From positions 21,367 to 85,366 of IMG/VR virus record IMGVR_UViG_3300021964_006878: 64,000 bases of DNA; one strand, given 5' to 3'. Shown here in pieces: positions 21,268 to 56,240 of the stretch. This DNA is from a virus. The translations under genes were made by a program, and so were the position numbers. The notes below the pieces were generated by a model. The model did no database searches. It was not told the DNA's origin and was given only the letters and a program-made list of their open reading frames with translations. Position 1 is the stretch's first letter, and each line of letters starts with the position of its first letter.

Positions 21268-21439
21268 CAATTCGTTCAAAATCTTCAATTTCGTCTGCAG
21301 TAACTTCGTGTTCATTATTGATTAGATACCAATGATGGCCAGAACGTTTACCAAGATACTGTAATTCTTCATCGATCCATGAGTTTTCACGCATTGCTGC
21401 TTGAATTTTATAATGAATCAATTCACCTCTAGAAATCAT
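21251..21439 (-). CDS. Hypothetical protein (62 aa)
   Basis: A small protein beginning MISRGELIHYKIQAAMRENS with an acidic tail (ADEIEDFERIDDDTD). Start and stop overlap gp33 and gp59 respectively, so it is co-translated with replication and late-transcription genes. Not recognised. Confidence 0.65.
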   Translation of the reverse strand: MISRGELIHYKIQAAMRENSWIDEELQYLGKRSGHHWYLINNEHEVTADEIEDFERIDDDTD

Positions 21440-27859: not shown

Positions 27860-28043
27860 GTTTCTTTTGGTCCGCTAGAATTTGGGGAAATGATGTACCA
27901 TGTCCGAATTCATTATAGAATTCATCAGGGGTGAAGTCTCTTCCAAGTTTATATTCTACAAACTTTTGTTCGGTTAGTGTGAGGACCTGAACGATCTTAT
28001 CACAATATGGGCATCCTGGTTTTGAATATACAATTAAATTCAT
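27807..28043 (-). CDS. Glutaredoxin
   Basis: Start at ATG 28043 (MNLIVYSKPG), coupled to the talC stop by ATGA. The active site CPYC is at residues 11-14, followed by the conserved GTSFPQI cis-Pro loop and a GGC motif. About 78 aa, normal for class I glutaredoxins. Probable role: thiol reduction, for example supporting ribonucleotide reductase. Confidence 0.9.
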   Translation of the reverse strand: MNLIVYSKPGCPYCDKIVQVLTLTEQKFVEYKLGRDFTPDEFYNEFGHGTSFPQILADQKKLGGCSETIKYLREEKLL

Positions 28044-28684
28044 TGTTGTACTCCTTTCCAATCATTTTCAAAGATTGCCATTCCCATATCGGTAAGGATA
28101 TGATCATGCATCTGTTCAAATATAGAAGGTGGCATAGTTACTACACTAGCACCATTATACCATGAACGGACAGCACGTTGCACACTACGAATAGATGCCG
28201 AGAGTACTTGAGTAGGAGCACCCTGTATACGATACAGTTCAGAAATAGAACGTACAACTTCTAGACCTGCTACTGATTGGTCATCCAATCGTCCTACGAA
28301 AGGAGAAACATAATATGCACCTGCTCGTGCTGCAAGAACTGCCTGGGCAGCAGAGAAGATAAGAGTCACATTGACACGGATGTTATTGTATGATAATTCG
28401 CTGCAAGCTTTAAGACCTTCACGAGTCATAGGAACCTTAACAGTGCAAGGAAACCCAAATGTTTCAAACAAACGACGACCTTCTGCAATCATATCATCAG
28501 CATTCCCCATGACTTCCATGCTGATATCTCGGATACCCATGTCCTTGATCTCTTGATAGACATCATCAGGTTTCCGACCACTCTTCATAATCAGAGTAGG
28601 ATTTGTAGTGATGCCATCAATCAATCCAGTATCATTATATTTACGAATCAATTCTGTGTCTGCTGTATCCAGAAAAATTTTCAT
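28040..28684 (-). CDS. talC: Transaldolase-like protein TalC
   Basis: A 214-aa TalC/fructose-6-phosphate-aldolase-type protein. MKIFLDTADTELIRKY leads to TTNPTL, and the Schiff-base lysine is K83 (CTVKVPMT). SPFVGRLDD and LSASIRS motifs follow. Cyanophage TalC is known to redirect host carbon into the pentose phosphate pathway, producing NADPH and ribose. It lies with purine genes and glutaredoxin, i.e. a nucleotide-supply block. Confidence 0.92.
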   Translation of the reverse strand: MKIFLDTADTELIRKYNDTGLIDGITTNPTLIMKSGRKPDDVYQEIKDMGIRDISMEVMGNADDMIAEGRRLFETFGFPCTVKVPMTREGLKACSELSYNNIRVNVTLIFSAAQAVLAARAGAYYVSPFVGRLDDQSVAGLEVVRSISELYRIQGAPTQVLSASIRSVQRAVRSWYNGASVVTMPPSIFEQMHDHILTDMGMAIFENDWKGVQQ

Positions 28685-28881
28685 TTGAGTTTATTTAAAA
28701 ATTCTCTCTCGTCATTATATAGAAACTTCATATCTTTGTCAAGGAAATATTCAATTCCTATCACGACTTCTGGTAGCAACCATTCATGCACTGGTAGACA
28801 TGCTTCCCAGTTCACAGGTTGAATACAATTCATAACCACCACCGACCAAAAGGCAGCAGCATAATTGATGATGCTAGTCAT
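28681..28881 (-). CDS. Small hypothetical protein (66 aa)
   Basis: Start at ATG 28881 (MTSIINYAAAFWSVVVMNCI), which overlaps the purM stop by ATGA. A hydrophobic N-terminus and an acidic/aromatic C-terminus are visible. Overlaps talC by 4 nt. Unknown function. Confidence 0.65.
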   Translation of the reverse strand: MTSIINYAAAFWSVVVMNCIQPVNWEACLPVHEWLLPEVVIGIEYFLDKDMKFLYNDEREFLNKLK

Positions 28882-29807
28882 GTTACTTTCCCGATAACCC
28901 ATGACCTCATACCGAATGGAGTATCAGCAATCAGAGTTTGAGTTAGTGTTGCTACCTCTTGTGGCACCACCAAACAGAATCCAATACCAAGATTGAATAC
29001 ATTACGCATCTCATCTTCAGCAATGTCTCCTGCCTCCTGGATCTTGTTAAAGAGTTCTGGTCTCTCCCAAGCATCATAGTCAACATCAACTTTAAGACCT
29101 GCTGGAAGGCATCGTGGAAGGTTCTCAGGCAGTCCTCCACCTGTGATGTGTGCCATGCCTAGGATAGGAACCTCATCCAACAGGTGCTGGATCAGACGAG
29201 AATAGATGGTGGTTGGAACCAGCAGCTCAGGCATCTCTTTATAATAGATGTAATTTCTCCACAGCATATCATTGACGAGTGTGTATCCATTACTATGAAG
29301 TCCACTGCTCTCAATACCAATGACTACATCACCAGGTCTGATGTTACTACCATCAACAATATCATTCTTCTCTACAATACCAGTACAGAAACCAGCAAGG
29401 TCATATTCAGTTGCTCTATAATGTTCTGCCGTTTCTCCACCTAGGAGTTCCATACCAGCCATTACACAACCAACATTAACTCCATACACAATGTCACTGA
29501 CGTTAGCATCAAGTGATTTAGTAGAGATATAATCTAGAAAATATAATGGTTTAGCACCAGAACATATAACGTCATTGACGCACATAGCAACAAGGTCCTG
29601 ACCAATAGTGGTGTAATCAAAAGCAATCCTACAGATATTAATTTTAGTTCCGACACCATCAGCACCAGATACCAGCACAGGTTTCTCATATCCTGATGGA
29701 ATCTCCATCATTCCATTGAACCCACCAATGTTAGGTGCCAGTGCTTTGATATACTCTACAAAGGAACGTCCCTTAATAATATCAACACCAGAAGTTTTAT
29801 AATCCAT
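28878..29807 (-). CDS. purM: AIR synthetase PurM
   Basis: A 309-aa PurM with VLVSGADGVGTKI, MCVNDVICSGAKPLYFLDYI, the GGETAEHY loop and a C-terminal ITGGGLPENLPR. It converts FGAM plus ATP to AIR in purine synthesis. Slightly shorter than the bacterial form (about 345 aa). With purC and purS it forms a dispersed phage purine set. Confidence 0.92.
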   Translation of the reverse strand: MDYKTSGVDIIKGRSFVEYIKALAPNIGGFNGMMEIPSGYEKPVLVSGADGVGTKINICRIAFDYTTIGQDLVAMCVNDVICSGAKPLYFLDYISTKSLDANVSDIVYGVNVGCVMAGMELLGGETAEHYRATEYDLAGFCTGIVEKNDIVDGSNIRPGDVVIGIESSGLHSNGYTLVNDMLWRNYIYYKEMPELLVPTTIYSRLIQHLLDEVPILGMAHITGGGLPENLPRCLPAGLKVDVDYDAWERPELFNKIQEAGDIAEDEMRNVFNLGIGFCLVVPQEVATLTQTLIADTPFGMRSWVIGKVT

Positions 29808-30004
29808 CAGTCTCTTCCCAAACGAATGTACAAAGTAATCAATGATTGTGAGATTAGATCACAAGAATATGTGAATCCAATCTTATCTTCCTTGTCCCAG
29901 TGTTCTCTTTGACTTTTAAGAAGTGTGGAAAACTCCTTAATTTTAGACCTCATTTCCTCTTTAGATAATTTATCCAATGATTTCACCTTTGGCAATTTGT
30001 TCAC
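29807..30004 (-). CDS. Small hypothetical protein (65 aa)
   Basis: Helical, basic N-terminus (MNKLPKVKSLDKLSKEEMRS), then KSQREHWDKEDKIGFTYSCD. Stop overlaps the purM start by 1 nt (TAATG). Unknown. Confidence 0.65.
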   Translation of the reverse strand: MNKLPKVKSLDKLSKEEMRSKIKEFSTLLKSQREHWDKEDKIGFTYSCDLISQSLITLYIRLGRD

Positions 30005-30242
30005 GACGTTTTAGTTTCCATACGATGTAATCCATTGTAGGGATACACATAGGATTCCAACCAACAAAGGATGTTGATTCTCCACTTGGTATCTTCCAAC
30101 AGGGAGCATCATCATTCTCAAGGTCTAATGACTTACGATACTCTTCCTCACCAAACATAACAACAGCACGTTCTGCTTCATTCAAACTCTTGAAGCAATC
30201 AAAAGAATTCTTTCTAATGATGTCAGGGATGTGATGTTTCAT
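29970..30242 (-). CDS. Conserved hypothetical protein (90 aa)
   Basis: Start at ATG 30242 (MKHHIPDIIRKNSFDCFKSL) rather than the longer frame to 30347, which lies in the upstream gene. Contains AERAVVMFGEEEYRKS and PSGESTSFVGWNPMCIPTMD. No recognised family. Confidence 0.65.
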   Translation of the reverse strand: MKHHIPDIIRKNSFDCFKSLNEAERAVVMFGEEEYRKSLDLENDDAPCWKIPSGESTSFVGWNPMCIPTMDYIVWKLKRREQIAKGEIIG

Positions 30243-30459
30243 TTTGAATCTCAAGTTTAAGTTTACGAATACCAGTGATGAAATAACCAAAGTCCCTGGT
30301 TTCTGTGATGGGTTTTGTCTCACCACATACACCACACTTTGATTCATACACAGATGAACATCCTACAGAATAAACTCCATACTTATGTCCACAATCAAAA
30401 CAAGTGTTGTAGGCAGTTTCAAGTTTCTTAAGTAGGGTCTTTTTTTCTTTGATGGTCAT
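30223..30459 (-). CDS. Small zinc-ribbon protein (78 aa)
   Basis: Start at ATG 30459 (MTIKEKKTLLKKLETAYN). Two Cys pairs, CFDCG and CGVCGE, with a third Cys between them, suggest a zinc ribbon; the ends are charged and helical. Nucleic-acid or protein binding is likely but unproven. Confidence 0.65.
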   Translation of the reverse strand: MTIKEKKTLLKKLETAYNTCFDCGHKYGVYSVGCSSVYESKCGVCGETKPITETRDFGYFITGIRKLKLEIQNETSHP

Positions 30460-30461
30460 TA

Positions 30462-30692
30462 TTAAAATCTCCAAGTGCGTTCCAGTAATCCAATATTCAA
30501 TCCAAACTTATAAACACTAAACAAAATAGAAATTAGATTGCCCATACCAGATTGGATTTGAAGAAAAGGCCAAACAGGATACTCATACCAATGTGCTGAT
30601 GCTTGAAAAAGTGCCCATCGTTTGGTGAATAATACTTGGACATACCAATCTTGTCCAAAATCACAATCACGGGTGAACTTAATTAGTTTCAT
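30462..30692 (-). CDS. Conserved hypothetical protein (76 aa)
   Basis: Rich in aromatic residues: FTRDCDFGQDWYVQVLFTKR then SAHWYEYPVWPFLQIQSG. Ends ERTWRF. Overlaps the upstream gene by ATGA. Unknown function. Confidence 0.65.
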   Translation of the reverse strand: MKLIKFTRDCDFGQDWYVQVLFTKRWALFQASAHWYEYPVWPFLQIQSGMGNLISILFSVYKFGLNIGLLERTWRF

Positions 30693-30952
30693 GTTTCATA
30701 TCCGTAATACTTCTCGTTGTAGTATGGGTTGCTGTTTATAAAGAACGACTTAATAAACTCTTCTTTACTTTCTTTCTTTGGTGGCACATAGTACATCTCC
30801 AACCATCCTTTATTGATGAGCTCAAAGAAACTTGGTTCCCACGATGCTAATGAGTTTAATGGATCAAACCTTTCACTGATTGCTAACCACCAAGTATCAT
30901 ACCAGTCTCCACCAAATCTAAAACGGATCTTGTCAAGTTGTTCTTCGGTCAT
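30689..30952 (-). CDS. Hypothetical protein (87 aa)
   Basis: Begins MTEEQLDKIRFRFGGDWYDT, Trp/Tyr-rich throughout, ends NEKYYGYET. Co-translated with purC (ATGA overlap). Unknown. Confidence 0.65.
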   Translation of the reverse strand: MTEEQLDKIRFRFGGDWYDTWWLAISERFDPLNSLASWEPSFFELINKGWLEMYYVPPKKESKEEFIKSFFINSNPYYNEKYYGYET

Positions 30953-31647
30953 TGGATTGCAAGTGGTTGTAGTCTATCTAGAATCTCACGATAGGCAGGT
31001 ACAATATCTCCTTCATCCTTTCGGAATAGGTCTTTATCAAATCTTTCATCACTACCAATCTTCCATAGTCTCATACTATCAGGACTAATTTCATCGGCAA
31101 GATACAAATCACCATGAGCATCATAACCATACTCAACTTTAAAATCTACAAGGTCAACGCCCATGATGTAAAACATCTGACGTAAGAAATCATTGATACG
31201 CAATGTCATCTCAATGAAAGGTTCAGGATCATATCCCATCAGACGCACACGGTCAGGGGTGAGTAGAGGATCATGCTTGCTATCATCCTTCAGGAAGAAT
31301 TCTACAATAGGATGTGGTAGTGGAGAACCTTCTACTAAAGTTGTTTCTCTTACAATAGATCCAGCAGCACGATTCCTACAAATAACTTCTAGAGGAACAA
31401 TTTCTACCTTCTTACAGATCATCTTGTTAGCACCAACCATATTAATATAATGAGTTGGAATAAGTTCTTTGGAAAGTTTCTCAAAAATGATAGATGAAAT
31501 ACTGCAGCAAAGAGATCCTTTTCCTAAAGGATGATCAACCATCTCACCATTGCCAGCAGTTACCTTATCATGATACTCAATGATGACTTGCTGTGCATCG
31601 TCACCTGCGTATACCGTCTTTACCTTTCCTTCTGTAATTACTTCCAT
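30949..31647 (-). CDS. purC: SAICAR synthetase PurC
   Basis: 232 aa with EGKVKTVYAGDD, the KMICKKVEIVPLEVICRNRA segment, a GSIVRE loop and LYLADEISPDSMRLW. It condenses CAIR with aspartate, using ATP. Near-complete length (about 237 aa in bacteria). Overlaps neighbours on both sides. Confidence 0.93.
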   Translation of the reverse strand: MEVITEGKVKTVYAGDDAQQVIIEYHDKVTAGNGEMVDHPLGKGSLCCSISSIIFEKLSKELIPTHYINMVGANKMICKKVEIVPLEVICRNRAAGSIVRETTLVEGSPLPHPIVEFFLKDDSKHDPLLTPDRVRLMGYDPEPFIEMTLRINDFLRQMFYIMGVDLVDFKVEYGYDAHGDLYLADEISPDSMRLWKIGSDERFDKDLFRKDEGDIVPAYREILDRLQPLAIQ

Positions 31648-44957: not shown

Positions 44958-45329
44958 TCAGAAGTTGTACTTCAGACCCGCTTTGGTTCCGTAACCACGA
45001 TCGATATTGTCGTCACCTGAACCGACGAAGGAAACTTCGCCATAAGCACCAAGTGCATCGGTCAGTGCAAGACCGAGACCTGCCTTACCAGAAGGAACAG
45101 TGTCACTTTCAGCACCGTCAGGGGAGACTACAGTAGCTCCTCCTTGGACGTAGTATGATGCACTCTCACCAAGTTCACCTTCATAACCTACGTGCAGGTC
45201 AGTGGCAGTTCCAGAGTAGTCAGAACCAGTCCAACCTGAGTTTGCTTCGACGTTAACGTAAGGACCAGCGAAAGCAGCGCCAGCAGATACGGACAGGGCA
45301 GCGGTTGCTGCGAATACAGATTTGATCAT
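44958..45329 (-). CDS. Exported beta-barrel-like protein (123 aa)
   Basis: Signal peptide MIKSVFAATAALSVSAGAAF, then alternating short strands (YVNVEANSGWTGSDYSGTAT) and a C-terminal KAGLKYNF ending in Phe, as in outer-membrane barrels. At about 100 mature residues it is small for a barrel. Monocistronic, with its own strong terminator and up to three stacked promoters. Unknown role, possibly outer-membrane modification. Confidence 0.7.
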   Translation of the reverse strand: MIKSVFAATAALSVSAGAAFAGPYVNVEANSGWTGSDYSGTATDLHVGYEGELGESASYYVQGGATVVSPDGAESDTVPSGKAGLGLALTDALGAYGEVSFVGSGDDNIDRGYGTKAGLKYNF

Positions 45330-45502: not shown

Positions 45503-45531
45503 AGTATAACCGAACTTGCCTGGTGTGTCAA
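45503..45531 (-). promoter_or_regulatory. Sigma70-type promoter TTGACA-N17-TATACT
   Basis: -35 TTGACA at 45526-45531 overlaps the stop codon of the GT25-like gene; -10 TATACT at 45503-45508; 17-nt spacer. It drives the barrel-protein gene at 45329 with a leader of about 170 nt. Confidence 0.82.
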
Positions 45532-46334
45532 CTCTCTTTATTTTGTTCTACAGGGGGCAGTCTTCCCATATATGGGTCATACTCAAACAATTGTTCCCAG
45601 TCTTGTAGTAGTGGTGCCTGTTTAGTCCACCATTCACGCAATCCATCTCGACTTGGAACATGGAAAGTATCAATATGCTCCTTATTCCAGATCATTGACT
45701 CAAGATGAGGAGGAGAGAATAGTAGAACAGGCATAGCAAAACTGTTACCAGACTCATAAATCAAGTGCTCTGAATTGCATCTTGGTTTTGCCTTGTAGTC
45801 AAGTTTGTACTTACCATCCCTATAACAGAGATCCATTAGTTTCTTGGCATGATGCCTCGTAATCATATAGCAGGCAGTAGAGAAGTCATTGACAAATCTC
45901 TTATGCAATGCTACATGCAAGGCACCAGGATTGATCACAGCAAGTTGAACCAAGTCATAATCAAATGGCATTCTTGTATAGAACTCTTTCCAAGTAAATG
46001 GCCAATTAGAAACAACTGATAGATCACAATCATCTTCCATCATAATAGCACAAGGAGTATCAGATGTAGTATACCATTGGTGGATTGCTTTCAAGTGTGA
46101 TGTACAGCATCCAACGTCAGTAGGACCCATTTGGTCAGGGTAGCGACCCTTCAGGATACCGCTCAAGTCGTCTTCACCAGTACCATCGTATCCAGAGATA
46201 CGGGTGTAGTCTTCAATCTCCCAGTATTTGAACTGGTCCTCCATATACTTCTGACGTTCTGGACTACGATCCAGGTTCGTGTAGTAGATAGGTGGAAGAC
46301 CTTTGAGTTTATATGCTGCCTTATTCTTATCCAT
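45528..46334 (-). CDS. GT25-family glycosyltransferase (268 aa)
   Basis: Starts the GT25 pattern at YYTNLDRSPERQKYME near residue 17, with TSHLKAIHQW and an MMEDDCD acidic metal motif near 98-104. The family adds galactose or related sugars to lipooligosaccharide. Last gene of the polysaccharide operon. Confidence 0.88.
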   Translation of the reverse strand: MDKNKAAYKLKGLPPIYYTNLDRSPERQKYMEDQFKYWEIEDYTRISGYDGTGEDDLSGILKGRYPDQMGPTDVGCCTSHLKAIHQWYTTSDTPCAIMMEDDCDLSVVSNWPFTWKEFYTRMPFDYDLVQLAVINPGALHVALHKRFVNDFSTACYMITRHHAKKLMDLCYRDGKYKLDYKAKPRCNSEHLIYESGNSFAMPVLLFSPPHLESMIWNKEHIDTFHVPSRDGLREWWTKQAPLLQDWEQLFEYDPYMGRLPPVEQNKES

Positions 46335-47220
46335 TAGTTTTGATCCATTCCATCACATCAATTTCAGGTTTCCATCCAATGATTTCACCAATTCTATCTA
46401 TATTTGCAAGAGTAGTCGATGCTTCACCAGAACGTTCAGGCAAGTATATTTGAGCATCAGAGATAGCGTTAGCAATCTCTTGAATAGAATAGTTCTTACC
46501 ACTACCTACATTAAATACATGACCCAACATATGGTAGATGGGTGATATGGCTGCAAGATAGTTTGCTCTTGCTACATCATGGACATGAACAAAGTCACGT
46601 CTCTGTGAACCATCACCAATAATAGTAAGTGCATCTCCACTTTCTGCTTGTCTCTGGAAGATACCAATCACTGGTGCATACTGACCAACAGTAGGAGACC
46701 TCTCACCAAATACATTAAAGTATCTCAAGGATATTGTCTCTAAACCATAAAGATCGGTATACATCTTACATAGTTTCTCACCTGCAATCTTGGACACAGA
46801 GTATGGGTTTAGACAATCATCAGGTTGTGTCTCTACATTAGGCCAACGATTACCACCATAACCAGATGAAGTAGAAGAGTATACTACTCTCTTCACACCT
46901 GCTTCCCTTGCACATTGTAGAACTACAGTAGTTCCAACACAGTTTTTAGTGACTGCATTGATAGGGTTCTCAATAGCAGGTTGTAGGCGACTCTCTGCCG
47001 CTAGATGAAACACATAATCAATACCATCAAAGTGTTCTCTCATATCTCCATAACTGGAGATGTCTGCCTTCACATTATATGCTTTACTATTCCAGTAAAA
47101 GTCATTGTTGTTTGCACTTTCATTATCAATACAAACAACATAATGTCCTTGTTCAATAAGATAATCAACCAGGTTAGATCCAATAAAACCTGCAGCACCT
47201 GTGACTAAACTTTTAGTCAT
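46327..47220 (-). CDS. NAD-dependent nucleotide-sugar epimerase/dehydratase (297 aa)
   Basis: Extended SDR: GAAGFIGSN at 8-16, catalytic Y/K in PYSVSKIAGEK, then LRYFNVFGERSP. Nearest in style to UDP-glucose 4-epimerases. The exact substrate cannot be read. It lies directly downstream of the HAD-nucleotidyltransferase gene, so it may epimerise the NDP-sugar made there. Confidence 0.88.
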   Translation of the reverse strand: MTKSLVTGAAGFIGSNLVDYLIEQGHYVVCIDNESANNNDFYWNSKAYNVKADISSYGDMREHFDGIDYVFHLAAESRLQPAIENPINAVTKNCVGTTVVLQCAREAGVKRVVYSSTSSGYGGNRWPNVETQPDDCLNPYSVSKIAGEKLCKMYTDLYGLETISLRYFNVFGERSPTVGQYAPVIGIFQRQAESGDALTIIGDGSQRRDFVHVHDVARANYLAAISPIYHMLGHVFNVGSGKNYSIQEIANAISDAQIYLPERSGEASTTLANIDRIGEIIGWKPEIDVMEWIKTNG

Positions 47221-47962
47221 ATTTCTCGTTTCTCCTAGGCATAATAGAATTGTGAATCAATGTTTTTAATCGAGTACTAGAGTACTCATGGTCTCTAGGT
47301 AACCAAGTAATTGGAATGCCCAGACCAACACCACTATAACTTCCATCAGAATAATCGTCTCCTAGGAACCTTACATTATACTCGCCACTTTCTAGGAGTG
47401 CAAGGTATTCATCTTCAATGTTATAAAACACAACATCATCAATGTTTCGCATACCCAGAAGAATTTCTTTGCGTTCCTCTGCTGTCTGCACTGGTTTCAG
47501 TTTATGTGCCCTCTCGGTTGAAGGGTCAACGTGAAGTGCAACAGTTAGATGGTTACAATACTTCTTTGCATCAGCAAACATACGAACATACCCTGGATGG
47601 ATTACATCAAAGGCACCTGCAATGATTCCTTTTCTTTGTGGTTGACCAAGAATCCAATCGAATACGTTAGCACCCTTATCGTCAATGAAAATATCAGCAT
47701 TGGGTTTGTGGAACATAGGTTCCAGTTCGTGATACTTCACACCCCAGTCATTCAGACTCTTCTCGGTTTGTGATGTCCAATCCTTACCTGATCCTCTACC
47801 ACGAGCAGTCATGATAATAATATAATGCCCCTCATCATAAAGACGATTGACTGTCTGTACCATAATGGGGATAGGAAGTGCATCCCAGTATCTTTGATTG
47901 TGACCATCAGGGTCGCAGGGAGTATCACAGATAGTCCCGTCCAAATCAAAACAAAATCTCAT
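47213..47962 (-). CDS. HAD phosphatase - nucleotidyltransferase fusion (249 aa)
   Basis: Start at ATG 47962 (MRFCFDLDGT; SD GGAG 4 nt upstream). Residues 1-105 form an HAD phosphatase domain: DLDGT nucleophile motif, TARGRG and IFIDDKG. Residues 110-245 form a cytidylyltransferase-type domain: GAFDVIHPGY at 116-125 (the variant of HxGH), the TAEERKEILLGMRNIDDVV helix and SSTRLK. In heptose pathways these activities remove the 7-phosphate and attach the nucleotide. The HAD part lacks the GmhB Zn loop, so the exact substrate is inferred from neighbours. Confidence 0.82.
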   Translation of the reverse strand: MRFCFDLDGTICDTPCDPDGHNQRYWDALPIPIMVQTVNRLYDEGHYIIIMTARGRGSGKDWTSQTEKSLNDWGVKYHELEPMFHKPNADIFIDDKGANVFDWILGQPQRKGIIAGAFDVIHPGYVRMFADAKKYCNHLTVALHVDPSTERAHKLKPVQTAEERKEILLGMRNIDDVVFYNIEDEYLALLESGEYNVRFLGDDYSDGSYSGVGLGIPITWLPRDHEYSSTRLKTLIHNSIMPRRNEKYD

Positions 47963-48474
47963 ACTACTCCGTGCAGGAAGATTTGATGAACACATTCTAC
48001 CACGCCATAAGACCTACTATTAATCCAATAGTTCCATAGAGCATTAACTGCAATGGTTCGTATTCTATTATTACATTCAAACCCAGTCAGCACTCCGTAT
48101 GATACTTTATTATCCTCACACCAATTCACACAGTTAAGCATGTTCTTGGATTCACCACCAGAACTCATGATAACTACAAGAGTATCATTCTCGACATAAT
48201 ACTCTAAGAATTTTTGATATGCTTTCTTATATCCAAAGTCATTGGAAAGCATAGTAAGCATAGAAGGGTCAGAGAGGATAGATACCTTCTTACCCCTGAA
48301 CTTCATATAGTCCTGAGAGATATGGGATGCTACGCTGCTACTACCGCCATTACCTAGGATAATAATTCTATTGTGGCAGTTAAATGCTGCCTGAAATCTT
48401 AAAAACTGTTCTTGTGCATGGGCGCATTTAAGTGCCTCTACATATTCTTCAAATGGATTTACCATAGACACCAT
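47959..48474 (-). CDS. SIS-domain phosphoheptose isomerase-like protein (171 aa)
   Basis: The SIS sugar-phosphate pocket is seen in RIIILGNGGSSSVASHIS and VVIMSSGGESKNML. Length and motifs fit GmhA, which converts sedoheptulose-7-phosphate to heptose-7-phosphate. An alternative ATG lies at 48465. The stop overlaps the fusion gene (ATGA), and the start lies inside the GHMP kinase gene: a three-gene cassette. Confidence 0.8.
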   Translation of the reverse strand: MVSMVNPFEEYVEALKCAHAQEQFLRFQAAFNCHNRIIILGNGGSSSVASHISQDYMKFRGKKVSILSDPSMLTMLSNDFGYKKAYQKFLEYYVENDTLVVIMSSGGESKNMLNCVNWCEDNKVSYGVLTGFECNNRIRTIAVNALWNYWINSRSYGVVECVHQIFLHGVV

Positions 48475-49396
48475 CAGTTCCGACTCGTATTCTAACAGAG
48501 TCGTATGGTATTGTCAATGTGCCAGGTTTAGAGAATGTCAGGAAGAACCCACCATTACCAGCACCACACAGTCGGTGTGCTAGAACAGTATCGTTGAGTT
48601 CTAATGCAGAGTCCATCATTTGAATGGTCTCGTTCTCTGCGATAGTTGATGATGTCTGTTTCTTTTGTCTCCAACTCTTGCTCATGAGATTTAAAAAACA
48701 CTTATAACTCTTATTGGAAAGTAGGTAGTATGCTTCATCACATGTTTCCAAAAGAGGTTTGACCTTATCCAGGTTCTCCGTCACATTCTTCAGAATCTTC
48801 TTGGAGTTTCTTGTGACACCTGTAAAGACAAGGTGCGTATCGTAGTGATCAAATAGATCGGTAGATAGGAACTCATAGGTGATACAATCATCTCCCATGA
48901 AATTGATACGCTTGAATCCACCAACACCACATCCGTATGGATCTTGATATCCACAGTATGGGTTATAAGTTCTTTCTAACTTATATGCGAGTTTACATGC
49001 ATCACTGTCGGTAATCGGAATACCCAGGAACATTGTGCATGCTTTGATAAGACTAATTGTATAAGAAGAAGAGGATGCAAGACCACTGCCCTGTGAATAT
49101 GCATCACTGGTCAGAGTTACCTGAACTGGTGGCATATCATAGTGCTGCAATACAGTCCTTACAACCTCGTTCTGAATGTCTCCAATACTAGAGACTTCTT
49201 CTCTTCTAGAATAGTTGATGATATATTTGTGCTGCTCTCTATTGAAACCAAACTTGTCCTGTGTGATAGTCACATAGGTCTTCAGACTGGATGTAAAACT
49301 AATTACAGAACCACGTCCATACTGCTCTACGAAGTATGGGTTATCTGTGGAACCACCGAAGAGTGATACACGAAGAGGACAAGATGCAATAATCAT
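48449..49396 (-). CDS. GHMP kinase, heptose-7-phosphate kinase (HddA)-like (315 aa)
   Basis: Start at ATG 49396 (MIIASCPLRVSLFGGSTDNP), overlapping the upstream stop (ATGA). GHMP motifs: SQGSGLASSSSYTISLIKAC (ATP loop) and LCGAGNGGFFLTFSK (motif 3). The opening CPLRVSLFGGSTDNP is typical of sugar-1-kinases of the HddA type. It would make heptose-1,7-bisphosphate for the next enzyme. Confidence 0.82.
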   Translation of the reverse strand: MIIASCPLRVSLFGGSTDNPYFVEQYGRGSVISFTSSLKTYVTITQDKFGFNREQHKYIINYSRREEVSSIGDIQNEVVRTVLQHYDMPPVQVTLTSDAYSQGSGLASSSSYTISLIKACTMFLGIPITDSDACKLAYKLERTYNPYCGYQDPYGCGVGGFKRINFMGDDCITYEFLSTDLFDHYDTHLVFTGVTRNSKKILKNVTENLDKVKPLLETCDEAYYLLSNKSYKCFLNLMSKSWRQKKQTSSTIAENETIQMMDSALELNDTVLAHRLCGAGNGGFFLTFSKPGTLTIPYDSVRIRVGTDGVYGKSI

Positions 49397-50226
49397 TTCC
49401 AACACCTATACTTGTGTAGATATTTTTGATTTGAATAGTATTCAATTAATTGGTCTTTATCGTACTTTTGGAGTTGTTCCCAAAGACTCCAATTATGTTG
49501 CCAATATGGATGCTGTGACATTGACTGGGGATAAGAATTCATACCCCGTGAATGTTCTAGGTGACAGATATGATTCTCAAGTCTATGCACTCGATAACCC
49601 AATGTCCTAAATCTATATCCTCTCTCATAATCGTCTGGTGCAGAACCCATAAAGTTTTCGTTCTCCATACCCCCCTCAAAGTATACATCACGACTTAAAA
49701 ACTGTACCCATCCCTCACCAGCATTATCAATCCAAGAAGCATTCTGCAATACGGTAAAATCAAAGTCTTCATTCAAGAAGTCAGAGACAACTTGATCTGT
49801 TGCCCTTACTCGATACTGCCATGGACCTTCACCATAAGGATAGACCATATCGCATTCATCTTCCATGATTCTACGATATGCTTCCACATATACTTCTGGT
49901 TCAAATAATACATCACAATCATAGTTAACAACTACCTTTGTAGTAGTCTCAACTAACATCTCATTAAGAATCTTTTCCCTAAGAAATAAGGGGTCATCAG
50001 ACTTCTCAAAAATATGTTTGATACAAGTTGCGTCATCACAGAACTCTTGAATCTGTGGAAGTGCTCGATCGGCAAATACAGATTCGGTATCTACTTCCTT
50101 AACAATAACATTAGTATCAAAGTTAGAAGCAATAAAACACAGTACTGTAATTACATTCCGAAGTCTATCTTCAGACTCAATACGAACTGGAACAATAAAG
50201 GTACAGTCTGTTAGGTCTCTCTTCAT
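49393..50226 (-). CDS. GT2-like glycosyltransferase (277 aa)
   Basis: GT-A type start (DCTFIVPVRIESEDRLRNVI) and metal motif NYDCDVLF near residue 100. A galactosyltransferase-like C-terminal block (GSAPDDYERGYRFRTLGYRV, then HLEHSRG) follows. Paralogous to the gene at 51077-51883 (same PVxxESEDRxRN and HLEHSR motifs). Confidence 0.85.
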   Translation of the reverse strand: MKRDLTDCTFIVPVRIESEDRLRNVITVLCFIASNFDTNVIVKEVDTESVFADRALPQIQEFCDDATCIKHIFEKSDDPLFLREKILNEMLVETTTKVVVNYDCDVLFEPEVYVEAYRRIMEDECDMVYPYGEGPWQYRVRATDQVVSDFLNEDFDFTVLQNASWIDNAGEGWVQFLSRDVYFEGGMENENFMGSAPDDYERGYRFRTLGYRVHRLENHICHLEHSRGMNSYPQSMSQHPYWQHNWSLWEQLQKYDKDQLIEYYSNQKYLHKYRCWK

Positions 50227-51080
50227 AATACAATCCAGTTTTCACAATACAGGTCTTTGGTATTATTGTTTGGGTATGCAGGACCGAACCACATCTTGGG
50301 AGCAACAACCTTACCCCTACCATTCTGCAACCAGGCACCCCACCAACTCATAGAACTATTAGCAATTATAGCACCAGAACACAAAGACATCAAGCACATA
50401 TCAATATAAGGTTCATAAGAACCATCACTATACTTATCCTCTGGAACAGAGATAGCAAAGCGATCATCACTAAAGAAGTCTTGTGTCTGAACCCACTCAG
50501 GAGAATCAGAGCATACGATGACGGGAACATCATCAGGGAATTGTTTCAGTGCCTTTTCATAATAAGAAATTGGTTGTGGTGGATGCTGGTCGGAGCATTC
50601 TGTATATGACCACTTGAATCCACGAGGGTCCATTAAGTTGGGGTCACCCCTGCGAACATGCAGAAAGATGGGAGGTGTATCAAATCCTTCAATTACTTCT
50701 TTACAAGGTCCAAGAATATGATCCTGGAAAGTATATTCACTACGGATATCATCTCTGATATTTTCAAAATACTTTTCAGTCTGAAAAAATCCTTGTAATG
50801 TAATATGATCAGGACAAAGATCAAATAACTCTTTATCAAAATGAAAGTAACGTTCTGCTACTACAGGAGCATATCCGTTATCTAAAAACTTTCTATTACC
50901 TGGTCCAACAGAAGGCATCGTGAATGCATTATGCAGACTATAGTTTTCAATACTCTTTGCATTTGTAGGGGGAATACACCACTCGTATCCTTTATTAGCA
51001 GCAATACCCCTAAGTGTAGCGTACTCAAACATCTGGTTACCTAGTCTTCCTAAGTTTCCAATTTGATTAAATCCAATCAT
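50223..51080 (-). CDS. GT11 fucosyltransferase-like protein (285 aa)
   Basis: GT11 motifs in order: GRLGNQMFEYATLRGIAA near the N-terminus, FLHVRRGD, and ANSSMSWWGAWLQNG. The family transfers L-fucose (or a close GDP-L-sugar) in alpha-1,2 linkage. First of three GT11 paralogs here. Confidence 0.9.
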   Translation of the reverse strand: MIGFNQIGNLGRLGNQMFEYATLRGIAANKGYEWCIPPTNAKSIENYSLHNAFTMPSVGPGNRKFLDNGYAPVVAERYFHFDKELFDLCPDHITLQGFFQTEKYFENIRDDIRSEYTFQDHILGPCKEVIEGFDTPPIFLHVRRGDPNLMDPRGFKWSYTECSDQHPPQPISYYEKALKQFPDDVPVIVCSDSPEWVQTQDFFSDDRFAISVPEDKYSDGSYEPYIDMCLMSLCSGAIIANSSMSWWGAWLQNGRGKVVAPKMWFGPAYPNNNTKDLYCENWIVL

Positions 51081-51883
51081 TTATTCAACCTCTTTTGTAC
51101 ATAGTCTTGCTGTTTGCAGTAATTTAAAATGGTATCTCCGGTTTGTTCTCGGACCCAATTCCATAACATAAAGTTATCTTTCCATAGAGGATTAGAGAAC
51201 CATGAATCATTAGTTCGTGAATGCTCCAGGTGATAGACATAATCATTCACTCTACCAACTTTATTACCTAAGACATTAAGTCTATAGTAAAACTCTGAAT
51301 CTTCAGGACCCCATGCATGAAAATTTTCATTCATCATAAAAGAATTTATATAGTTTTCTCTACGGACGAATTGACACCAACCAATAGTTGAATTACTTAA
51401 TGTCACATATGGGTGTAGAGAAGTTATGTCCATATCACTTTTAATAAATTCATCAAAAGTTTCACTAGAATATGTGACTGCTCTTTGATATGCACCACAT
51501 CCGTATGGATAAACTGCATCACAATCACCTCTCATGATAGCATTATATGCAGCATGATAACTATTCTCTGGAAGTAATACATCTGTATCGTAATTACATA
51601 CTACTTCTGTATCAGAACGCAGTAGTAGATCATTCAATACCTTTGTTTTATGAAAGTATGGTTCTGTCTGATTATCAAAAGTGTAACCAAATCTATCTGA
51701 AATATTTCCAAACTTTTTATTCAGATGAGGCATAACAAGTTCAGAGAACTTACTCTCTGTATCATGCTCTTGTACTAAAATTTTAGAATTGAACTTTGAC
51801 AAAAGATAAGTAAGAACTGTCTTAAGATTTCTTACTCTATCTTCTGATTCAAGTTTTACGGGAATTAAAAATGTTAAATTCAT
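51077..51883 (-). CDS. GT2-like glycosyltransferase, second paralog (268 aa)
   Basis: Same domain order as 49393-50226: FLIPVKLESEDRVRNLKTVL, NYDTDVLLPEN, and AWGPEDSEFYYRLNVLGNKV then HLEHSRTN. Alternates with GT11 genes, pointing to duplication of a two-gene unit. Confidence 0.85.
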   Translation of the reverse strand: MNLTFLIPVKLESEDRVRNLKTVLTYLLSKFNSKILVQEHDTESKFSELVMPHLNKKFGNISDRFGYTFDNQTEPYFHKTKVLNDLLLRSDTEVVCNYDTDVLLPENSYHAAYNAIMRGDCDAVYPYGCGAYQRAVTYSSETFDEFIKSDMDITSLHPYVTLSNSTIGWCQFVRRENYINSFMMNENFHAWGPEDSEFYYRLNVLGNKVGRVNDYVYHLEHSRTNDSWFSNPLWKDNFMLWNWVREQTGDTILNYCKQQDYVQKRLNK

Positions 51884-52767
51884 GAAACTGGTTCAATTGG
51901 TGTTGGGTCATTATACATTTTGATCCATCTATCTGGAATTAAATCTTTAGTATCAAGATGTGAATTTGCTGAACCATACCAAGGAGTAGGTGCTACAACT
52001 TTACCAGCATCACCCTGCAACCAAGCACCCCACCAAGACAGGGAGGAGTTTGCAATAATTGCACCACTACATAAACTCATCAAACACAGGTCAATATAAG
52101 GAACACTAGCACCATCTGCAAACATCTCCAAAGATGAATCTGAAAAGTGAAAGCGGTCTCCTTCCAACCAATCTTGAGTCTTACACCATTCAATCAAATC
52201 AGATACAACGATCACATTAATATCATCAGGAAAAATCTTTAGTGCCTCTGTATAATATTCTGGTTTACACAGAGGGTGAAATTCCTGCAGCATTTGATAA
52301 GACCACTTCTCACCTCTACGACCGGTAATGTTAGGACTGCCACGACGAACATGGAGGAATATACATTTCTCTCTTCCACCGATACTATCAATATACTCCT
52401 TACAGGGGTTAAGATAGTTCTCATTAAAAGTAAGATCTACTCGCAATTCATCTCTAATGTGCTCAAAATATTTTTCTGTCTGGTAAACTCCAGAATAATT
52501 AATATTATCCCTACAGTTATCAAAAAGTTCTTGCCGAAATAAAGTATCTCTACACTCAAGAGTAGGATAATTACCTTCTCCAGTTTGCGTACACCCAGTC
52601 ATTTCAAAACAATCAAACAAACCATAGTTATCAAACCTAGGTTCTTCTGGTCCAGGAATCATCCAATCAAGATTACATTTTGCAGCCATACCACGAATGA
52701 AAGCATACTGAAATAATTGATTACCCAGTCTACCCTCATTACCAAGTCCATCAAAAGATATAGACAT
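51880..52767 (-). CDS. GT11 fucosyltransferase-like protein, second paralog (295 aa)
   Basis: GRLGNQLFQYAFIRGMAA, FLHVRRGSPN and ANSSLSWWGAWLQGD mark GT11. ATGA overlap with its downstream GT2-like partner. Has GSP where the others have GDP/TDA after the HVRR motif. Confidence 0.9.
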   Translation of the reverse strand: MSISFDGLGNEGRLGNQLFQYAFIRGMAAKCNLDWMIPGPEEPRFDNYGLFDCFEMTGCTQTGEGNYPTLECRDTLFRQELFDNCRDNINYSGVYQTEKYFEHIRDELRVDLTFNENYLNPCKEYIDSIGGREKCIFLHVRRGSPNITGRRGEKWSYQMLQEFHPLCKPEYYTEALKIFPDDINVIVVSDLIEWCKTQDWLEGDRFHFSDSSLEMFADGASVPYIDLCLMSLCSGAIIANSSLSWWGAWLQGDAGKVVAPTPWYGSANSHLDTKDLIPDRWIKMYNDPTPIEPVS

Positions 52768-53627
52768 TACTTACTCCAATCTAAAATTTTCCAATGGTCA
52801 GGAACCATATCTGATGTATCCAAGTGTGAGTTTGCAGGTCCAAACCACTTCACAGGATTTGGTGCAACAACCTTACCCCTACCATTCTGCAACCAAGCAC
52901 CCCACCAAGAGAAAGAACTATTAGCTATTATAGCACCAGAACACATAGACATCAAGCATAGGTCAGTCTGAGGTAACAGAGTGTTCTGCCTCTTACCGGT
53001 GCCGTCAATAGTCTGATATGAATATTTCTCGTTGCTCTCATTGAATAGGAATCTATCTGCCTTGAAGAACTCTTGCTTCTTACACCAGGCAATATCATCA
53101 GTGAATACAAAGCAGGGAGTATCTTCTGGAAATTGTTTCAATGCTTCTTCATAGTAAGTCAATGGTAAGATGGGATGATACTCCTCCCTACCTATAGCAT
53201 CTGTTCTTCTGATATGCAAGAAGATCGGAGGGGTATCAAGACTCTTAATATATTGATTACAAGGAATAGAATATCCTTCGTTAAATTGGAAGTCTTGTAG
53301 AATCTGATCCTTGATATGAGAGAAATACTTTTCCGATTGGAAGTACCCTTCAAGGTTCACACCATCTGGTAGTTCAGTAAAGAACTCTTCAATGAACTGG
53401 TGACCATTCTCCTGAACTGAGTTACCTTCTACAAATCCAATATTACTGGTCTTTACATTCTTAAGTTTGAATGACTCAAATAATCCATAGTTATCTCTGT
53501 GTGGGTAATCCTCTGGTGGAATAGTAAAGTCATATCCATTCTTCGCAGCAATACCTCTCAGTGCTGCATACTGGAACATCTGATTACCCAGACGACCATT
53601 AGAACCTAATCTGTTGTATCCAATCAT
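52767..53627 (-). CDS. GT11 fucosyltransferase-like protein, third paralog (286 aa)
   Basis: GRLGNQMFQYAALRGIAAK, FLHIRRTDA and ANSSFSWWGAWLQNGRGK mark GT11. One-nt overlap with the preceding paralog. Uses IRRTDA in place of VRRGD at the donor-binding site. Confidence 0.9.
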   Translation of the reverse strand: MIGYNRLGSNGRLGNQMFQYAALRGIAAKNGYDFTIPPEDYPHRDNYGLFESFKLKNVKTSNIGFVEGNSVQENGHQFIEEFFTELPDGVNLEGYFQSEKYFSHIKDQILQDFQFNEGYSIPCNQYIKSLDTPPIFLHIRRTDAIGREEYHPILPLTYYEEALKQFPEDTPCFVFTDDIAWCKKQEFFKADRFLFNESNEKYSYQTIDGTGKRQNTLLPQTDLCLMSMCSGAIIANSSFSWWGAWLQNGRGKVVAPNPVKWFGPANSHLDTSDMVPDHWKILDWSK

Positions 53628-54730
53628 AAATCAATCCAAATAACTTTTTCTTCTGGTACGCTCCAATTAATTCTACTATCGCATTGATGTTCTACAACAT
53701 TATCTACAACATAGACCTTGCAACCTAAGTCTAGAAGACCCAGACATAGTTTGTATTGCTGACTCTCGGTAAGAATATCAGTTCCCCTCTTATATGCAAC
53801 ACTATCAAATGCATATGGCAATCCCATTGGATTATTATTTACGTAATAATCTATTAAGAACTTACTGTGCTCTTCGTTAAATGAATCAGTGACTTGTCCC
53901 AGATTATACTCCAGTCCTAGTTTTTTAGCACAAGCAGCAAATGCTCTGTTATCTCTAGGAAGACAAGGACCACCGAATCCAAAACCAAATCCCAAATACT
54001 TGTGTCCTACTCTACTGTCTGAACCAATGGCATCCAATACGTTATCAATCTCATCACCCATACCACTCTTATGCATCACCTGACCAATCATATTGGCGTA
54101 TGTAATTTTAGTGGTGAGGTAACAGTTGACTGCTAACTTAACAAGTTCTGCTGCCTTGCGACTCATCACATAGACATTCGGAGTTTCAATCTGAATATCA
54201 TCGTAGATTTTTTCAATGTCTTGGATGTGCTTACCAGTACCGCCAACCAAAACCATATCAGCATGCTCCAAGTCCCTGACAATAGACCCCTGTGCAATAA
54301 ATTCTGGGTTGTAATATACATCTACACCATATGATCTCAGGTGATTCTGGAAATCATCACAGTCACCTGGATTGGTAGTACAACCAATGACTAGACTCTT
54401 ACATTCTACATCACATTCCTTAAAGTCTTTGATAATTTGACGAATACAACTAATATCATAACTACCATCAGGGAGTGATGGAGTAGCAACGAAAGTGTAA
54501 ATCAAATCACATTCATGAATTACATCTATATTATCAGTAACAAAGGTAATATTCTTAGACTTGGAAAGAAGATTACTAACTTGTGGTTCTGTTGTTTTGA
54601 TTAACCCAGCACGTAAATTAGCAACGTAGTCTTCACGGATATCAGAAGCAATAACTTCATATCCTGCTTTTTCTAATAGTAGAGCAAAACAGATACCAAG
54701 TCTGCCTGCTCCCAGTATACCGATTTTCAT
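53624..54730 (-). CDS. Nucleotide-sugar 6-dehydrogenase (368 aa)
   Basis: UDP-glucose/GDP-mannose dehydrogenase family: GILGAGRLGICFA Rossmann loop, FVATPSL, YYNPEFIAQGS, and the catalytic-cysteine segment FGGPCLPRDNRA near residue 254. It oxidises an NDP-hexose to the uronate with 2 NAD. Slightly short for the family but with all core motifs. Confidence 0.88.
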   Translation of the reverse strand: MKIGILGAGRLGICFALLLEKAGYEVIASDIREDYVANLRAGLIKTTEPQVSNLLSKSKNITFVTDNIDVIHECDLIYTFVATPSLPDGSYDISCIRQIIKDFKECDVECKSLVIGCTTNPGDCDDFQNHLRSYGVDVYYNPEFIAQGSIVRDLEHADMVLVGGTGKHIQDIEKIYDDIQIETPNVYVMSRKAAELVKLAVNCYLTTKITYANMIGQVMHKSGMGDEIDNVLDAIGSDSRVGHKYLGFGFGFGGPCLPRDNRAFAACAKKLGLEYNLGQVTDSFNEEHSKFLIDYYVNNNPMGLPYAFDSVAYKRGTDILTESQQYKLCLGLLDLGCKVYVVDNVVEHQCDSRINWSVPEEKVIWIDL

Positions 54731-55500
54731 TTTAATTTAGCAGTAATTAATAGATGCCACCCAAGTTTTTTCTCAAGGATACCAAACATTTCATCTGGCA
54801 TTTCAGCAAACCATGGTTGCTTCAAATATTCACCTTTTTTATAAGGTTCAATTTGATATGGAAAGATGTGGTCTTGTTCAATAGATAGAACTTCATATCC
54901 ATCAAGTAGATCTACCACCTCTTTCTTAGTATATGTATTCGCAATCGGACAACCATACTGTGCTTCTGGTTGGTCTAAACCAGCATCAATCATATAATTT
55001 TTCCAAGAGTCCTTTGCATAAAGCATAATCTTAAGAACACTATTCTCATTCATATAGTTTTTAATCTCAGAAATAATCTTTTCTGGATGTGGACTATGAT
55101 GAATCACACCAAATGAATAAACTAAATCATAAGTTTCCACAGGAACAAATGATGAAAGTTCTTCTGCGTTACCACAATAGAAGTTACCTGATTGATCAGA
55201 GACATCAAATCTCTTCTGTGCAAGTTTCATACTCTCTTCAGAGAGTTCAACCCCAGTATAATCAGCACCAGAAATTGCAAAGTTGATACCTACTGTTCCA
55301 AGTCCACAACCAATCTCAAGAACTTTCTTATCACTATAATCAGTGAACTGACTGAATGAAATAATATGTGGTTCAACAATAAACTTTTTATATGTTACTT
55401 CTTTAAAGTATTCTTTGGTTCCGATATCTTTTTCAGAGTGTCTTACATTACAAGGACGGTCATTCCAAAATTGTTTTACGTCTTCAATAGTTGCTTTCAT
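54727..55500 (-). CDS. Class I SAM methyltransferase (257 aa)
   Basis: Motif I VLEIGCGLGTVG at about 60-71, the acidic D/E after the second strand (YTGVELS) and a post-motif IHHSPHPEK. Small-molecule or sugar O-methyltransferase by context. Overlaps its neighbours by ATGA. Confidence 0.85.
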   Translation of the reverse strand: MKATIEDVKQFWNDRPCNVRHSEKDIGTKEYFKEVTYKKFIVEPHIISFSQFTDYSDKKVLEIGCGLGTVGINFAISGADYTGVELSEESMKLAQKRFDVSDQSGNFYCGNAEELSSFVPVETYDLVYSFGVIHHSPHPEKIISEIKNYMNENSVLKIMLYAKDSWKNYMIDAGLDQPEAQYGCPIANTYTKKEVVDLLDGYEVLSIEQDHIFPYQIEPYKKGEYLKQPWFAEMPDEMFGILEKKLGWHLLITAKLK

Positions 55501-56240
55501 AGTTTGAATGTAGGAATGGGTATCATCTTATGCTTATTCTTTGCATTTAGATCATGCAAAATTCTAACAGCAGGTCCATTACCATTCTCCATTGCATATT
55601 CTAAATCTTCGTATGAAGCACCAATCTGTGCCTCATCGGTTCTCGAATCGTCCCACAATCCATCTGTAGGTGATGCATCAATTATACGTTGACCTACGCC
55701 AAGATGCTTTCCAAGTTCCCATACTTCAGTTTTATAGAGATCAGCAATAGGAGCGATGTCAACACCGCCATCACCATATTTAGTATAGAATCCAATACCA
55801 TAATCTTCTACCTTATTACCAGTTCCAACAACAATACCTCCAATAGATCCAGCAATCTGGTATAGAGTCACCATACGAATACGAGATCTTGTATTTGCAA
55901 GGGCAAGATTATCATCATTATATCCATCCATAGTGGATGCAAATGTATCAAAGGTATTCGTCAAATCAAACTTAAGTTTAGTTACATTGGTATATTTGTA
56001 GGACAACCACTCAAGATGTGCGTCTGACAGATTCTCTTGTTCCTCATTCTGATGGATAGGCATTCCCAACACATAAGTGGGCATACCAGTTTCTGCACAG
56101 AGAGTAGAAACTACAGCAGAATCAATACCGCCAGATACACCAACAACTAGTGAATTGATATTATTCTTATCTGTATATTCTTTAACCCAAGTAATAATAC
56201 TTGACGTTAGTTGACTATAACTTTTAATTCGATTCATCAT
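55497..56240 (-). CDS. nadE: NAD synthetase NadE-like (247 aa)
   Basis: PP-loop SGGIDS at 36-41. GTGNKVEDYGIGFYTKYGDG and DIAPIADLYKTEVWELGKHL, then PTDGLWDDSRTDEAQIG, match the ammonia-dependent NadE substrate and ATP sites. It converts nicotinate adenine dinucleotide to NAD. An N-acetyl-sugar amidotransferase would have a similar PP-loop but not the TDE..G segment. In this operon it could supply NAD for dehydrogenases and epimerases or restore NAD lost to host defence. Confidence 0.85.
   Translation of the reverse strand: MMNRIKSYSQLTSSIITWVKEYTDKNNINSLVVGVSGGIDSAVVSTLCAETGMPTYVLGMPIHQNEEQENLSDAHLEWLSYKYTNVTKLKFDLTNTFDTFASTMDGYNDDNLALANTRSRIRMVTLYQIAGSIGGIVVGTGNKVEDYGIGFYTKYGDGGVDIAPIADLYKTEVWELGKHLGVGQRIIDASPTDGLWDDSRTDEAQIGASYEDLEYAMENGNGPAVRILHDLNAKNKHKMIPIPTFKL

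Follow-up and report, generated by a model that had tools for sequence, protein, structure and literature searches.

Introduction

In the GDP-heptose pathway of Campylobacter jejuni, an isomerase, an anomeric kinase, a bisphosphatase and a nucleotidyltransferase together provide the logic of synthesis (PMC10680097), and a similar isomerase-kinase-phosphatase-nucleotidyltransferase logic has been suggested for the arabinose genes that cluster in RB69-type phages (PMC13390438). Genes of the Synechococcus phage SynMITS9220M01 have been published as heptose-related genes of lipopolysaccharide (LPS) synthesis (Belisle et al. 2020, PMC7378029). Here we analyse a cassette of four overlapping genes, encoding a kinase, an isomerase, a HAD phosphatase fused to a nucleotidyltransferase (HAD-NT) and an epimerase, in a 64,000-nucleotide stretch of viral DNA (the window), which covers positions 21,367 to 85,366 of the 85,366-base IMG/VR virus record IMGVR_UViG_3300021964_006878. 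With a probability of about 0.58, we propose that this cassette provides a heptose-type route, leading from sedoheptulose-7-phosphate to an epimer of a nucleoside diphosphate (NDP)-heptose that feeds the neighbouring glycosyltransferases. The products of cyanomyovirus sugar genes are rarely known, and a complete, overlapping cassette that is shared with hosts offers a testable route from central carbon to a surface sugar, in phages whose hosts are reported to carry LPS without heptose.

A cassette of four overlapping genes

The window carries psbA, psbD, talC, thyX and gp59-like genes, and its DNA resembles that of T4-like cyanophages; judged by this gene content and DNA match, it is a fragment of a cyanomyovirus (T4-like cyanophage). 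A first-pass annotation had described three overlapping open reading frames at 47213-49396 as a kinase, an isomerase and a HAD-NT. All three are real and lie on the minus strand, with ends that we refined using conserved start codons, but a fourth overlapping gene, the epimerase at 46327-47220, had been overlooked. The impression of a reverse pathway order arose because the locus had been read on the plus strand; transcription proceeds towards lower coordinates, through the kinase, isomerase, HAD-NT and epimerase genes, and their order is thus nearly forward with the first two steps swapped. Successive genes from the kinase to a GT25-family glycosyltransferase overlap by 4-17 bases, with an overlap at every junction, and a glycosyltransferase-like gene upstream shares 4 bases with the kinase start. 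Gene starts were picked by family conservation, M4 of the kinase and M12 of the HAD-NT being conserved; residue numbers count from the alternative starts at 49405 (GTG) for the kinase and 48474 (ATG) for the isomerase.

The kinase (48449-49396, 315 amino acids) belongs to the GHMP family of sugar-1-kinases (GHMP_kinases_N, E = 6e-10). HddA is its top NCBIfam family (6e-29), and a profile of the kinase matches heptokinases in the PDB at 7e-58, the top PDB relatives all being heptokinases. At 101.6 bits it falls short of the 600-bit equivalog cut-off for HddA, while HddA is still the top of all families. In WcbL, mutation of R13, D22, S118-120, Q162 or D163 abolishes activity (PMC4691232), and the equivalent residues are all retained in the kinase, as R12, D21, S111-113, Q154 and D155, and conserved across its family. 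With heptokinases as the best matches in both databases and these essential residues in place, the earlier assignment to the HddA type is borne out, the enzyme being of HddA/WcbL type.

The isomerase (47959-48465, 168 amino acids) is a SIS-domain protein, predicted to act on a sugar phosphate, whose top NCBIfam model is of GmhA type (1e-13). Its AlphaFold 2 model has a predicted local distance difference test score (pLDDT) of 93.6, and when this model was searched with Foldseek the first 34 matches were all GmhA or DiaA, with a best template modelling (TM) score of about 0.8. The strong matches in a PDB sequence search were likewise limited to GmhA and DiaA.

The bifunctional HAD-NT (47213-47962; Pfam, NCBIfam and PDB matches) combines an N-terminal HAD phosphatase of AfhF/PNKP type with a C-terminal, cytidylyltransferase-like CTP_transf_like domain (PF01467, 2e-7); the AlphaFold 2 model has a pLDDT of 87.6. 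Its DxD motif, R175, R234 and S239 are invariant across 82 members. The closest solved relative of the HAD domain is PDB 9iqw, AfhF of phage HY126, a D-arabinose 1,5-diphosphate phosphatase according to its PDB title. The 9iqw sequence is identical to RB69 ORF051c over the matched part, and the cassette HAD matches ORF051c at E = 1e-24; this gene sits in the DNA-arabinosylation region of RB69 (PMC6024577). We observed in addition that short phage proteins labelled 'phosphoheptose isomerase' actually match the HAD phosphatase domain and not a SIS domain, a misannotation that has propagated (PHROG 1238; RB69 NC_004928 27708-28094; S-CAM3 NC_031906 113596-113916; P-TIM68 KM359505 171192-171530).

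In the case of the nucleotidyltransferase domain, the nearest folds are glycerol-3-phosphate cytidylyltransferase (GCT; 1coz, TM 0.86 by target length) and HldC (5xf2, 0.68-0.71). The invariant R234 aligns with the Arg of the GCT motif RTxGISTT, which hints that the enzyme may use CTP, though sequence does not settle between a CDP- and an ADP-linked product. HddC is defined by an RfbA-like NTP_transferase domain, and with its PF01467 domain the cassette enzyme is not HddC-like. A huge phage, LR756511, carries a cassette-type nucleotidyltransferase fused to an HddA-type GHMP kinase (locus L004, 5986-7362), an HldE-like arrangement made of different parts, and this fusion links the kinase with the nucleotidyltransferase; a search for a SIS relative in LR756511 found none, an empty answer that carries little weight.

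The fourth gene (46327-47220) encodes a predicted NAD-dependent nucleotide-sugar epimerase of the SDR family (Pfam Epimerase, 6e-57). It scores 154.6 bits with the galE hidden Markov model and 108.7 bits with that for heptose_epim, both under cut-off, the latter not reaching the 274.6 required for HldD (TIGR02197). The YxxxK and glycine motifs are invariant, and at nearly all loci the gene directly follows the HAD-NT. By these scores, the epimerase is GalE-like with no clear HldD character.

Recurrence in viruses and host genomes

When IMG/VR was scanned, the HAD-NT query yielded 56 loci and the kinase query 152, of which 80 were kept; kinase-isomerase-HAD/NT-epimerase was the dominant arrangement among them. 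After removal of identical HAD-NT proteins, 59 distinct viral cassettes share the four-gene order. The isolate SynMITS9220M01 carries all four genes in this order; they overlap there too and are 68-73% identical. Since the order recurs in these 59 cassettes, in an isolate and in hosts, the arrangement is far beyond chance. Moreover, a set of divergent viruses (loci L053 and L055-L060), with kinases only about 26% identical, encodes all four functions, but differently arranged. Because the four functions persist there despite being re-ordered, this is strong evidence that the four proteins act in one pathway. A contig from an Acidimicrobiaceae metagenome-assembled genome (PBYV01000054.1) was considered as a sign of a wider bacterial range and rejected: its cassette groups with IMG/VR phages, and the contig is probably mis-binned cyanophage DNA.

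When one genome per species was scanned, a single-cell genome of Prochlorococcus (L140) proved to carry the fused HAD-NT, and a search of 400 genomes of its family revealed the full fusion in 5 picocyanobacterial genomes. In four of these (L140, L171, L172 and L173), the cassette adjoins the same run of clpP, clpP, ilvC, cobD and a sugar transferase, these flanking genes being recognised from sequence and some stretches ending within the run. One of the four ilvC-linked cassettes lies on a 1.94-Mb contig, and the fifth host cassette occupies a different polysaccharide locus. The host cassettes are chromosomal islands, not phage contigs. In a concatenated tree, the five hosts form one clade among the phages (Shimodaira-Hasegawa-like approximate likelihood ratio test 99); the tree is unrooted, and the direction of transfer cannot be read from it. 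As the hosts form this single clade, sharing of the cassette between host and phage would be old or rare.

Other genomes of the same family (L175-L180) combine a SIS protein with a PfkB-type kinase-nucleotidyltransferase (PfkB-NT) and a GmhB-like HAD, to which an epimerase is frequently added; the LPS of these hosts is said to contain no heptose. Some host GmhA-like proteins encoded beside such PfkB-NT and GmhB-like genes already have a Glu-to-Asp change at the metal site.

Neighbouring genes and the rest of the window

The cassette lies in a cluster with glycosyltransferases of GT25, GT11, GT7C and GT10 type. The GT25-family gene (45528-46334, minus strand; Glyco_transf_25 2e-8, PHROG 2835 2e-105) overlaps the epimerase and has a homologue in 47 of the 59 viral cassette loci; it likely uses the cassette product. 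The glycosyltransferase-like gene upstream of the kinase (49393-50226, minus strand; PHROG 15655 1e-106, with a weak galactosyltransferase match) recurs in 30 of the 59. Further upstream, the remaining cluster (50223-54730, minus strand, by Pfam) comprises three GT11 genes, one GT7C gene and a UDP-glucose/GDP-mannose dehydrogenase. GT11 homologues were present in 39/59 viral loci, and no host cassette locus had a homologue of either GT25 or GT11. The first-pass annotation's suggestion that the product feeds phage-directed surface glycosylation gains from this surrounding cluster, although the acceptor is a matter of inference.

We made several further observations in this region. Between 49393 and 53627, GT11 and GT7C/PHROG-15655 genes alternate and resemble tandem duplications of a two-gene unit. 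An NAD synthetase gene lies within the glycan cluster (55497-56240), with a homologue in 7/59 cassette loci. Just downstream of the cluster, a small protein (44958-45329) has an apparent signal peptide and a porin-like look, and SynMITS9220M01 encodes DUF680 proteins in the corresponding position.

The TalC transaldolase (28040-28684, minus strand; TAL_FSA 3e-52), which the first-pass annotation had brought in as acting on the pool containing sedoheptulose-7-phosphate, is indeed present, but some 19 kb from the cassette and with no physical linkage to it. TalC is a reversible enzyme that is frequent in cyanophages, and because it is so general and works in both directions it lends the heptose reading weak support. 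Near talC, genes for an AIR synthase (purM-like) and a SAICAR synthetase (purC) lie at 28878-31647.

Proposed pathway and alternatives

In the heptose-type route that we favour, the SIS enzyme would convert sedoheptulose-7-phosphate to D-glycero-D-manno-heptose-7-phosphate and the HddA-type kinase would add a phosphate at C1. The HAD domain would then take off the terminal phosphate; its characterised relative AfhF dephosphorylates an aldose-1,n-bisphosphate, which is the type of reaction required of the cassette HAD. In the same chain, the nucleotidyltransferase domain would add CMP or AMP to give CDP- or ADP-heptose, and the SDR enzyme would epimerise one carbon of this NDP-heptose before GT25/GT11 glycosyltransferases of the cluster transferred the sugar. 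A host glycan of O-chain type is the most likely target, since the same cassette occurs in surface-polysaccharide islands of hosts. Given the reported absence of heptose from the cyanobacterial LPS core, a heptose product would enter O-chain or capsule-like glycans and not the inner core. The most likely use of the product is decoration of the cell surface during infection, which might, for example, alter the receptor seen by competing phages. The first-pass annotation's claim of four activities leading from sedoheptulose-7-phosphate to an NDP-heptose stands in that an isomerase, an anomeric kinase, a phosphatase and a nucleotidyltransferase are complete in one unit; the substrate is a prediction from sequence, and the phosphatase, nucleotidyltransferase and metal site are atypical. 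Its remark on NDP-heptoses as innate-immune signals is irrelevant for a marine cyanophage.

Several findings weigh against this route. None of the cassette proteins reaches an NCBIfam equivalog cut-off. The metal ligands of the isomerase are H51, D55, E160 and H168 (H/D/E/H) instead of the canonical H/E/Q/H of GmhA, so that the GmhA type proposed earlier holds for the fold, as seen in the model and sequence matches, but not for two of the four zinc ligands. In GmhA, the ligands H64, E68, Q175 and H183 are described as 'completely conserved', and the Q175E mutant of the Burkholderia pseudomallei enzyme is inactive (PMC5705639). D55 is present in 83/83 and E160 in 75/83 aligned isomerases. As the H/D/E/H set is common to the isomerase of Caulobacter phage Cr30 and, judged by spacing, to those of the divergent viruses, it is a fixed trait of a subfamily. 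Furthermore, GmhB-type HAD proteins carry a Cys/His zinc loop, which is absent from the cassette HAD in an alignment with E. coli GmhB; by these comparisons, this domain is of the AfhF family and not a GmhB. The nucleotidyltransferase has the motif HPGY (Y in 77/82 and H in 5/82 members of the family) in place of HxGH. The fusion of a phosphatase to a nucleotidyltransferase noted at first is real, but it joins a HAD that is not GmhB to an enzyme without the second His of HxGH. Finally, according to a review (PMC4390846), the core of cyanobacterial LPS contains no heptose. Taken together, each of the GmhA, GmhB, HldE and HldD assignments fails at least one of the defining features tested, while 'heptose-pathway-like' stands as a working description: the kinase and the GmhA fold point to heptose, and the HAD domain, the metal site and the nucleotidyltransferase motif leave room for other sugars.

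This room allows, tentatively, for a pathway that has not been described. In it, an isomerase re-set to H/D/E/H would make a non-standard aldose phosphate or perform altered chemistry, alongside the fusion of an AfhF-type bisphosphatase with a cytidylyltransferase-like domain, and the product would mark surface polysaccharides of Prochlorococcus as well as phage-altered glycans. If this were true, one mobile four-gene unit would rewrite cyanobacterial surfaces. It is somewhat doubtful that the logic is kept for a different sugar, with the altered isomerase making a pentose or hexose aldose phosphate, such as D-arabinose-5-phosphate, that becomes an NDP-pentose or NDP-hexose for glycans. In its favour, the HAD is a member of the AfhF family, and AfhF is named as a D-arabinose-1,5-bisphosphate phosphatase; among the four domains, this is the one whose closest characterised homologue is named for another sugar, an outcome that the first-pass annotation had named as counting against its proposal. 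The nucleotidyltransferase also resembles cytidylyltransferases, and the H/D/E/H set, fixed in the families of the cyanophages, of Cr30 and, judged by spacing, of the divergent viruses, looks like a specificity under selection and not like decay. However, the kinase retains Q162 and D163 (WcbL numbering) and has heptokinases as its best matches, the SIS protein shows no match to RB69's isomerase, which is of KdsD type, and the Glu-to-Asp change in host GmhA-like proteins near PfkB-NT and GmhB-like genes implies that this change alone fits a heptose context.

Whatever the sugar, its destination may be questioned separately, and decoration of the phage's own fibres or capsid proteins is the main alternative to the host surface. 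Glycosyltransferases of other phages can glycosylate virions, and those seen here lie within the phage cluster and are missing from the host cassette loci; this destination is nevertheless unlikely, as the host islands have the cassette without any phage. Transfer to phage DNA, of the kind that leaves cytosines arabinosylated in RB69-type phages, is very improbable. The pathway logic is parallel (PMC13390438) and the HAD domain is common to ORF051c of the DNA-arabinosylation cluster, but we rank this reading low because the HAD alone is shared: the isomerase, kinase and nucleotidyltransferase of RB69 are unrelated to those of the cassette, which gave no significant match to RB69 proteins. In addition, the 85-kb record, which may be incomplete, has no dCMP-modifying gene of the thymidylate-synthase family, the neighbours are of glycan-type glycosyltransferase families, and the cassette also occurs in chromosomal polysaccharide islands of hosts. 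That the proteins are degraded or non-catalytic remnants, as two non-canonical catalytic motifs might suggest, is scarcely credible with frames that are intact and overlapping, residues invariant in about 80 diverse members and a conserved order.

Comparison with known systems

The proposed heptose-type route resembles the GDP-heptose pathway of C. jejuni (PMC10680097) in its logic, its GmhA fold and its HddA-type kinase, but the cassette HAD is not GmhB-like, its nucleotidyltransferase is CTP_transf-like and not of HddC type, the metal set is altered, and the HAD and nucleotidyltransferase are fused. The ADP-heptose pathway (HldE/HldC, HldD) shares with it the nucleotidyltransferase fold, found in the C-terminal domain of HldE and in HldC, and the SDR epimerase that follows; the cassette differs in having a GHMP instead of a PfkB kinase, an HPGY motif and an SDR enzyme closer to GalE than to HldD. 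The RB69/HY126 DNA-arabinosylation cluster is alike in the family of its HAD bisphosphatase (AfhF) and in pathway logic, whereas its isomerase is of KdsD type, its kinase (ORF052c) is of another fold family, its nucleotidyltransferase resembles mannose-1-phosphate guanylyltransferases, and it acts on DNA; a single phosphatase family thereby connects the synthesis of phage surface glycans with the glycosylation of phage DNA. The heptose genes of Caulobacter phage Cr30 include a kinase of HddA type and a GmhA-like SIS protein with H/D/E/H, but there the nucleotidyltransferase is separate and TagD-like, the genes are unfused and in another order, and no HAD was seen in the locus. In SynMITS9220M01, which has the same four genes, the kinase, isomerase and epimerase were already named in the publication, with the HAD-NT that a complete route needs annotated as hypothetical.

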